From positions 227,484-291,483 of the forward strand of contig JAUNTX010000001.1 in NCBI GenBank assembly GCA_030538475.1: a stretch of DNA of 64,000 nt, read 5' to 3'. The notes beneath the pieces were generated by a model that was not told where the DNA came from, searched no databases, and saw nothing but the letters and a program-made list of their open reading frames with translations. Shown here piece after piece: positions 7,594-10,492 of the stretch. This DNA is from Dermabacter sp. Lineage in GTDB: Bacteria; Actinomycetota; Actinomycetes; Actinomycetales; Dermabacteraceae. The position numbers were made by a program, and so were the translations under genes. Every line of letters begins with the position of its first letter. The stretch's first letter is position 1.

Positions 7594-7755
7594 ATGGCTG
7601 ACGAAACTTACACTGGCGAGTTCTACTGCGTGAAGTGCCGCGAGAAGCGCGAAGCTACGGGCCGCATTGAGGTCAACGAGAAGGGCCGCCGCGCTGCGAA
7701 GGCCGACTGCCCCGTTTGCGGCACGAAGCTCAACCGCTTCCTCCCCAGCAAGTGA
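7594..7755 (+). CDS. DUF5679 small zinc-ribbon protein
   Basis: A 53-residue protein with two CxxC knuckles, CVKC (12-15) and CPVC (39-42), that should bind one zinc ion. The core (EFYCVKCREKRE...GRRAAKADCPVCGTKLNRFLP) matches the actinobacterial DUF5679 family; the basic GRRAAK segment before the second knuckle suggests nucleic-acid or ribosome contact, but no function is established. The ATG follows AAGGAG with good spacing. A strong terminator follows, so the gene is monocistronic. Confidence 0.85.
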   Translation: MADETYTGEFYCVKCREKREATGRIEVNEKGRRAAKADCPVCGTKLNRFLPSK

Positions 7756-8148: not shown

Positions 8149-8201
8149 AGAAAAAGGGGAGGCTAAAGACGGGGATCAGCGTGTGCTCGATCCGTCTAGC
8201 C
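8149..8201 (-). terminator. attenuator hairpin in the whiB7 leader
   Basis: On the minus strand a long, nearly complete stem (8161-8201, outer arms GGCTA-GACGG and CCGTC-TT-TAGCC, inner GATC/AGC arms, ACAC loop) is followed by CCCCTTTTTCTC at 8149-8160. It lies between the leader peptide stop and whiB7, so it would end transcription before whiB7 unless an alternative fold forms. Confidence 0.8.
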
Positions 8202-8212
8202 CTGGAGCGGTG

Positions 8213-8287
8213 TTAGTGCCGCACGCTCCGCGGGCGCATCGTGATCGAGACGCCGATCTTGCCGATGGGGCCGTACTTCGTTACCAC
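8213..8287 (-). CDS. whiB7 leader peptide (uORF, 24 residues)
   Basis: A GTG-started frame of 24 codons plus stop on the whiB7 leader, preceded by AAAGGGG at suitable spacing. It begins VVTKYGPIGKIGV and ends RPRSVRH before TAA. Its last codons contain GGAGCG, which can pair with CGCTCC just after the stop, giving a possible alternative to the terminator fold. Mycobacterial and Streptomyces whiB7 genes are known to have a uORF-coupled attenuator that senses ribosome stalling; this has the same layout, but the peptide sequence itself is not one I recognise. Confidence 0.7.
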   Translation of the reverse strand: MVTKYGPIGKIGVSITMRPRSVRH

Positions 8288-8353
8288 GCTGCACCCCTTT
8301 CTTTTCTCGTGCGCTCGAATGTTCTTCGGCGCAGACCACTGTGAACGCCCACG

Positions 8354-8395
8354 AGCCTACACGAGAGGAGTGGGCATCGCGCAATTATTTTTTGA
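8354..8395 (-). promoter_or_regulatory. whiB7 promoter with WhiB7-type AT-rich element
   Basis: On the minus strand an AT-rich run (TCAAAAAATAA, 8385-8395) touches a TTGCGC -35 (8379-8384), with TAGGCT as the -10 (8354-8359). WhiB7-dependent promoters carry an AT-rich patch immediately upstream of -35, so this is consistent with autoregulation. The spacer to TAGGCT is 19 bases; TGTAGG would give 17. Confidence 0.7.
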
Positions 8396-8404
8396 CCTGG
8401 GGTT

Positions 8405-10492
8405 TTACCCCTGCTGGGCGGCGATGATGCCGAGCACCTGGTCGCCGTAGTTCTCGAGCTTGGACGGCCCGATCCCCGGCACTGCGGCCAGTTCCGCCCG
8501 GGTCGCGGGGGCTCTGTCCGAGAGGGCGAGCAGGGTCTGATCGGTGAAGACCGCGTAGGCCGGGATCTTCTTGTCCTTCGCGACCTCGAGGCGCCATCGG
8601 CGCAGTTCGCCGAAGAGGGCGGCGCTCTGTTCGCCCCCGCAGTCGCGGTGGCGGCCGATCTTCTGCTCCGCCGGGGTGGTGAGCGCGTCGCCGCACGTGC
8701 GGCACACCGTGTAGATCGTGGCCGAACGCCGCCCCGTGGTGCGCGCGGCAGCCTTGGCGCCCATCCCGGAATCCTTGCGATCAAACGCCCCCGCGATGAA
8801 GCGCGAGGCGTTGCGGGAGGCACGGGCGCCCTCGCTGCGGGCCTGAGACCACGTGACCGTGAGCAGGTCCCGCGCGCGCGTGAGCGCCACGTAGAACAGG
8901 CGCCTCTCCTCCTCGATGGCCTCGTCCGTCTTCGCCATCGAGATGGGGATGAGCCCCTCGCTCGCCCCGACCACGAACACTGCGGGCCATTCGAGCCCCT
9001 TCGCCGTGTGGATCGACGCAAGAGTCACGCCCTCGACCGTCGGCGCGCTCTGTGCTTCCGCCCGCTCGTCGAGTTCCGCCACGAGGTCGGCGAGCGTCGC
9101 GCCCTCGCGCTCGGCCACCGTCTCGGCGAGCGTCACGAGGGCGTTGAGCGCATCCCAGCGCTCGCGAATCGCTCCCGTCCCCTCGGGCGCGTTCGGGCTC
9201 CACCCCTGGGAGCCGAGCACGTCGCGCGTCACCTTCGCCACGTCGTGCCCCGCATCCACGACGTTCAGGGCGGCGCGCAGCGCGCTCATCGCCACGCGCA
9301 CGTCCTGCCGCTGGAAGAACTTCTCTCCCCCGCGCACGAGGTAGGGGACGCCGACGCGGCCCAGCTGGTCCTCGAAGTTCTCGCTCTGGGCGTTCGTGCG
9401 GAACAGGATCGCGATGTCGCTCGCGGGCGTGCCCGCGTCGATGAGGCTGCGGATCGAGGCGGCCACTTCGCGCGCCTCCGTGACATCGTCGCTGTAGCCG
9501 ATGACGAGCGGGCGCGGGCCCGGCTCCCGCTGGGCCCGCAGCGTCAGGCGCGCCTCGGCGCCCGGCTGCGAGGCCCGCGCCTGACCGAGGACGGCGTTGG
9601 CGGCATCAACCACTTGCGGCGTCGAGCGATAGTTGCGTTCAAGCTTGATGACCTGGGCTCGGGGGAAATGCTCGCGGAACTTCAGGAGGTAGTTCGCATC
9701 GGCGCCCGCGAACGTGTAGATGGTCTGCGCGGCGTCGCCCACGACGCACACGTCGGAGGAATTGCCGAGCCACGCCCGCAGCAACCGGTACTGCAGCGGC
9801 GAAACGTCCTGAAACTCGTCCACCACGAGGTGTCGGTACTGGGAGCGCACCTGCTGCGCCATCTGCGGGTGCTCCTCGAGCAGTGAGCCCGTCAGCACCA
9901 GAACATCGTTGAAGTCGATCACCCCGAGATCACTCTTGACGTCCTCGTAGCGGCTCATGATCCGGGCAATCGTGCGGAACTCGAAACCGCTCACGCCCTG
10001 GCGGCCCAGCTTCGCCGCCGCCACCGGGTACTGCTCCGGCACGATCATGGACACCCGCGCCCACTCGATCTCGCTCGTGATGTCCCGCAGCGCCGCCCGA
10101 TCCAGGCTCAGGTGCAACTGGCTGACGGCGTTCGCCACGAGGCCGATCTTTTGCGGGGCCAGCTCGGGCATGGGGCCGCCCACGGTGAGCGGCCAAAAAT
10201 AGCGCAGCTGGCGCAGCGCCGCCGCGTGAAACGTGCGGGCCTGCACCGCCGGGGCGCCCAGGTCGCGCAGCCGCGAACGCATTTCCGCCGCGGCCTTCGA
10301 GGTGAACGTCACCGCGAGTACGTGGCGCGGATCGTAGGCACCCGTTGCCGCCGCGTACGCGATCCGGTGCGTGATCGCGCGGGTCTTGCCCGTGCCCGCA
10401 CCCGCGAGGACGCACAGGGGCGCGCCCACGTTCGTGGCCACCTCGCGCTGCTCGGGATCGAGCCCTTCCAGGATCCGCTCGGCAGCGGTCAC
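8405..10492 (-). CDS. uvrD2: ATP-dependent DNA helicase UvrD2
   Basis: A 695-residue superfamily 1A helicase with Walker A GAGTGKT, VDEFQD, GDAAQTIYTF, IHTAKGLEWPAV and YVALTRAR motifs. After the motor comes a zinc-finger-like linker (CRTC...HRDC) and a C-terminal HRDC domain, the UvrD2 arrangement. UvrD2 is a 3'-5' helicase tied to DNA repair and is essential in mycobacteria. The second half of the linker has His where relatives have Cys (HRDC). The GTG start overlaps the nudC stop by four bases, so the two are coupled; the whiB7 leader starts right after its stop. Confidence 0.93.
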   Translation of the reverse strand: MTAAERILEGLDPEQREVATNVGAPLCVLAGAGTGKTRAITHRIAYAAATGAYDPRHVLAVTFTSKAAAEMRSRLRDLGAPAVQARTFHAAALRQLRYFWPLTVGGPMPELAPQKIGLVANAVSQLHLSLDRAALRDITSEIEWARVSMIVPEQYPVAAAKLGRQGVSGFEFRTIARIMSRYEDVKSDLGVIDFNDVLVLTGSLLEEHPQMAQQVRSQYRHLVVDEFQDVSPLQYRLLRAWLGNSSDVCVVGDAAQTIYTFAGADANYLLKFREHFPRAQVIKLERNYRSTPQVVDAANAVLGQARASQPGAEARLTLRAQREPGPRPLVIGYSDDVTEAREVAASIRSLIDAGTPASDIAILFRTNAQSENFEDQLGRVGVPYLVRGGEKFFQRQDVRVAMSALRAALNVVDAGHDVAKVTRDVLGSQGWSPNAPEGTGAIRERWDALNALVTLAETVAEREGATLADLVAELDERAEAQSAPTVEGVTLASIHTAKGLEWPAVFVVGASEGLIPISMAKTDEAIEEERRLFYVALTRARDLLTVTWSQARSEGARASRNASRFIAGAFDRKDSGMGAKAAARTTGRRSATIYTVCRTCGDALTTPAEQKIGRHRDCGGEQSAALFGELRRWRLEVAKDKKIPAYAVFTDQTLLALSDRAPATRAELAAVPGIGPSKLENYGDQVLGIIAAQQG

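Follow-up and report, generated by a model that had tools for sequence, protein, structure and literature searches.

The whiB7 locus and its leader

The window, a 64,000-nucleotide stretch of a 2.53-Mb Dermabacter sp. genome, carries whiB7 on the minus strand (8102–7821), between a uvrD-like helicase gene and a DUF5679 gene and behind a leader of ~245 nt (leader locus 8399–8102, minus strand). In actinobacteria, whiB7 is a master gene of intrinsic resistance to many drugs that target the ribosome. The copy found here encodes 93 aa, including GVWGGQ and the AT-hook RGRPRK. A PDB search returned Mtb WhiB7 (7kif, E 8.3e-24) as its best match, with the other WhiB proteins in the PDB scoring far below, and a Pfam search identified Whib (PF02467); an NCBIfam search gave no match for this protein. 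Orthologues from Brachybacterium, which we take to be a sister genus within the same family (Dermabacteraceae), are 55–68% identical to it. Judged by its sequence, the gene downstream of the leader is a bona fide and intact whiB7.

The uvrD-like gene stops at 8405 (minus strand) and the AT-rich promoter element of whiB7 follows directly. No terminator is apparent in between (8405–8399), so the leader hairpin described below may also end uvrD-like transcripts. An Rfam search at E up to 1 left the leader without any match and gave two sub-threshold matches outside it. Inside the DUF5679 gene, on the plus strand at 7606–7702, a sub-threshold Rfam match to c-di-GMP-I-GGC scored 26 bits (gathering 59) and is most likely due to chance.

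The promoter opens with an AT-rich WhiB7-type element, CAGGTCAAAAAATAA (8399–8385, minus strand, as are all leader features below), recognizable from its sequence and its conservation. A −35-like TTGCGC (8384–8379) and a −10 TAGGCT (8359–8354), both assigned by sequence, are separated by a 19-nt spacer. The position of the −10 puts the predicted transcription start near 8347; a start at 8354 was modelled and then dropped, since it falls inside the −10. A sigma-70 consensus scan found no match at this promoter. Across the whole genome a strict promoter pattern occurs twice, once at whiB7. Nearly all whiB7 leaders of the family keep the AT-rich element as (C)AGGTCAAAAAAT, and CAGGTCAAAAAAT, a putative WhiB7 binding element, is conserved among them; Brachybacterium leaders also keep TGTAG.CT in the −10 region. 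Searching for a WhiB7 regulon through promoter patterns recovered only whiB7 itself and one doubtful site.

Downstream, a Shine–Dalgarno (SD) sequence AAAGGGG (8300–8294), assigned by sequence and by the SD-led uORFs that relatives carry at an equal distance from the promoter, precedes a predicted 24-codon uORF (8287–8213) that starts with GTG, translates as MVTKYGPIGKIGVSITMRPRSVRH and stops with TAA. It is followed by a hairpin (8202–8160; −19.5 kcal/mol), a CCCC spacer (8159–8156) and the T-run TTTTT (8155–8151). Between this putative terminator and whiB7 lies a five-codon frame, ATGACGTCGTATTTCTAG (8133–8116), which is in another frame than whiB7 and overlaps its SD region. The earlier note had read the locus in this order, from AT-rich promoter, SD and 24-codon GTG uORF to hairpin, T-run and whiB7, and each of these elements is present on the minus strand. 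Fold prediction, which the same note had suggested as a check, gave a leader structure more stable than chance (z = −5.2 against dinucleotide shuffles, with 0 of 200 as good).

Competing helices and ribosome position

The uORF contributes one strand of a helix that overlaps the terminator. The 5′ strand of this antiterminator, GATCGGCGTCTCGATC (8258–8243), lies in uORF codons 10–15, and its 3′ strand, GATCGAGCACACGCTGATC (8192–8174), is the upper arm and loop of the terminator. The helix comprises 16 bp with a 3-nt bulge and is predicted at −22.4 kcal/mol versus −19.5 kcal/mol for the terminator. With a simple helix score, pairing as good as this arose in 2 of 1,500 dinucleotide shuffles of the uORF, in 4 of 1,500 random window segments and in 69 of 1,500 synonymous recodings. 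The antiterminator is therefore rare for its composition and only modestly rare given the peptide and its codon usage. A different alternative stem had been proposed at the outset, GGAGCG (8229–8224) with CGCTCC (8209–8204). That hairpin is present and does span the uORF stop, but it ends before the terminator begins and does not overlap it, which rules it out as the antiterminator; it forms an inner hairpin within the 16-bp helix, and it is the latter that competes with the terminator.

To model ribosome position, a footprint was masked at each uORF codon in turn and the RNA was folded as far as the T-run; the calculation describes equilibrium and not kinetics. With no ribosome, the antiterminator reached 0.98 and the terminator stayed below 0.01; with the P-site at codons 1–3, the antiterminator remained at 0.93–0.98. 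Ribosomes on codons 4–13 gave mixed outcomes, mostly terminator, that varied with the assumed footprint. On codons 14–23 the terminator prevailed at 0.69–0.86, and at codons 24–25, including the stop codon, the outcome was again mixed or dependent on footprint. We repeated the folding with starts at 8347 or 8340 and footprints of 12–16 / 15–18 nt. Once the T-run is transcribed, the pattern of ON with an early or no ribosome and OFF at codons 14–22 holds in most settings; with the T-run left out of the transcript, neither structure forms cleanly at most positions in the middle of the uORF. The same procedure applied as a control to another leader of the family (G006) produced the terminator at every position and no switch, so masked folding does not build switches in. 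Within this model, antiterminator and terminator are mutually exclusive and the choice between them depends on where the ribosome stands.

From these pairings we infer that the leader is probably a uORF-coupled transcription attenuator of an autoregulated whiB7. RNA polymerase would start near 8347 at the WhiB7-type promoter. Ribosomes translating the uORF at normal speed would keep codons 10–15 out of the antiterminator helix, the terminator hairpin would fold and transcription would stop near 8150. A ribosome inhibitor, or a general shortage of translation, would block initiation or the first few codons, and codons 10–15 would then pair with the terminator arm. Formation of the antiterminator would preclude the terminator and allow whiB7 to be transcribed, after which WhiB7 would amplify its own promoter. 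The default state without a ribosome would be ON.

This scheme has close precedents. PMC11550727, PMC9618640 and PMC13393426 (original work: Lee, Lee and Roe 2022, doi 10.1111/mmi.14834) describe uORF attenuation of whiB7/wblC as established in Mycobacterium and Streptomyces, with translation of the uORF leading to the terminator and lack of translation to the antiterminator; early RNA evidence for a whiB7 leader is given in PMC4128351. The Dermabacter leader has in common with these systems a downstream whiB7, an AT-rich promoter of the autoregulatory type, a uORF and, in silico, competition between terminator and antiterminator with the former favoured by uORF translation. It differs in its unrelated 24-codon peptide, in placing the antiterminator strand in codons 10–15, in the CCCC before its T-run and in its length (~245 nt, whereas those of M. 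bovis and M. marinum run to ~350 nt; PMC4128351). Streptomyces leaders of the ARE-ABCF genes tiaA and are5sc are likewise actinobacterial uORFs coupled to a terminator and antiterminator, and they are induced when ribosomes stall at the uORF start, which parallels our model for codons 1–3; unlike the Dermabacter leader, they control an ABCF gene and their uORFs have 3–9 codons (PMC12421871). Our literature search found no report of this whiB7 leader in Dermabacteraceae. The attenuation proposed by the earlier note thus agrees with the anatomy, the masked folding and the published whiB7/wblC scheme, even though the antiterminator stem it named was the wrong one, and on this modelling the Dermabacter leader probably joins the whiB7/wblC uORF attenuators already known.

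The uORF peptide

The encoded peptide, VVTKYGPIGKIGVSITMRPRSVRH, contains no run of regulatory codons for a single amino acid of the kind that characterizes trp/ilv-type attenuators. Codons 18–20 (8236–8228) spell R-P-R, a +X+ motif, and +X+ motifs are the main ketolide stall site and one of the macrolide stall sites (PMC8298421). The uORF could on this ground be a peptide-specific sensor, with induction triggered by macrolide- or ketolide-dependent arrest at R-P-R. Ribosome stalling inside the whiB7 uORF was untested as of 2025 (PMC12121999). Across the family, [RK]x[RK] occurs in 16 of the 17 distinct uORF peptides against 5.1 predicted from composition; these peptides are, however, related by descent, and the window peptide taken singly would be expected to contain the motif by chance (0.65). 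In Brachybacterium both Arg codons of the motif are invariant, but the second is part of an RNA hairpin, and 17 related uORFs give a pN/pS of 0.90; the peptide is thus not strongly conserved there, and the motif may reflect constraint on the RNA. A ribosome at codon 19 is, moreover, modelled as favouring the terminator (0.83), which is the OFF state. We consider induction by arrest at the motif very improbable and retain attenuation governed by whether translation of the uORF takes place and how far it proceeds.

The peptide does differ from the others, as had been pointed out, but this novelty is ordinary, since uORF peptides vary widely across the family and all members differ. The further suggestion that an unusual peptide implies a different range of sensed antibiotics is unsupported: the predicted switch depends on the extent of translation, and no sequence evidence bears on the range.

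Terminator output across the Dermabacteraceae

The initial reading of a strong terminator hairpin and T-run is borne out by the stem and not by the tail. A hairpin of −19.5 kcal/mol and a T5 are present, as in a Rho-independent terminator, but the tail score of 0.52 is the lowest among 26 whiB7 leaders with T-runs (the other 25 score 1.3–5.4), and a consensus terminator scan of the leader called no terminator. The four Cs between stem and T-run make this terminator non-canonical. Mycobacterial RNA polymerase requires a U-tract, as a 2014 paper by Czyz states in its title (reference in PMC8060035).

A weak U-tract is what one would see if the uORF and the competing helices were real and the hairpin at 8202–8160 did not terminate on its own. 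The output would then come from Rho-dependent termination or from control of whiB7 translation, a possibility for Brachybacterium too. We examined 34 distinct Brachybacterium leaders (L002–L024, L026, L028, L111–L113 and L123–L129, with L016 and L025 excluded). All 34, together with the other whiB7-bearing genera, G004 and G008, keep the promoter and an SD-led uORF at equal distance, with other peptides, and a U-tract terminator was found in none of these; within the family it occurs only in the window genome and G006. The Brachybacterium leaders also resemble the Dermabacter leader in gene order (uvrD-like, whiB7, DUF5679) and differ in the length of their uORFs (28–46 codons). At the uORF stop, most of them have a covarying hairpin (95% of cells paired, 47–57% when slid, 3 double-changed cells), and the second hairpin that follows it is 87% paired with 29 double-changed cells. 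In most, an invariant non-SD sequence, GCAGCGAG, lies before the whiB7 ATG and is complementary to CTCGCTGC, which is found close to the uORF stop (90% paired, no double change). These features look like translational attenuation.

Modelled ribosome-site accessibility speaks against translational control in both genera. Masked folding of the 34 Brachybacterium leaders gave nearly flat values (0.29 with no ribosome, 0.28 with a ribosome at the start codon and 0.27 near the stop). In the window, the whiB7 SD is unpaired at 0.40 in all 26 ribosome states with the start at 8347, and neither SD nor ATG accessibility changes with ribosome position as it would in erm-type translational attenuation; accessibility of the ribosome site is constant with the start at 8340 as well. 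This constancy makes termination the likelier output. The 5′ end of the leader (8340–8333, AGTGGTCT) could form 8 bp with the SD region of whiB7 (8117–8109, AGGACCACT), at −11.6 kcal/mol; since this pairing is independent of ribosome position, it was ruled out as a means of controlling whiB7 translation in the window. We regard an output through Rho or translation as unlikely and favour attenuation at the hairpin.

Three congeners (L131, L132 and L133, from G003, G001 and G002, respectively) lack whiB7 and its entire leader; in these genomes the uvrD-like gene borders on the DUF5679 gene, a terminator being all that separates the two. As Brachybacterium shares the order uvrD-like, whiB7, DUF5679 with the window, the gene arrangement is most simply read as a loss of whiB7 in the three congeners. 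Such loss, and the weak terminator tail, would fit a leader in decay, its uORF and helices being leftovers and whiB7 being controlled at the promoter only. The SD, the open frame, the promoter, the strong competing helices and the whiB7 gene are nevertheless all intact in the window, and we hold decay to be very improbable; a working attenuator remains our preferred account.

With its compact 24-codon uORF and one dominant antiterminator helix, the Dermabacter leader offers a simple model for toeprinting and could separate the effect of fewer ribosomes from that of a ribosome stalled at a motif. Its main interest lies in the comparison within the family and in the weak terminator tail. We tentatively raise the possibility that the output of the whiB7 switch has changed in Dermabacteraceae, the promoter and uORF having been kept and the U-tract terminator being either missing (Brachybacterium, G004 and G008) or weak (the window genome); control would then be exerted by something other than a textbook intrinsic terminator, with uORFs tending to carry +X+ macrolide-stall motifs. 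The comparison with Brachybacterium leaders points to an output layer that evolves fast in a switch whose promoter and uORF placement are kept.
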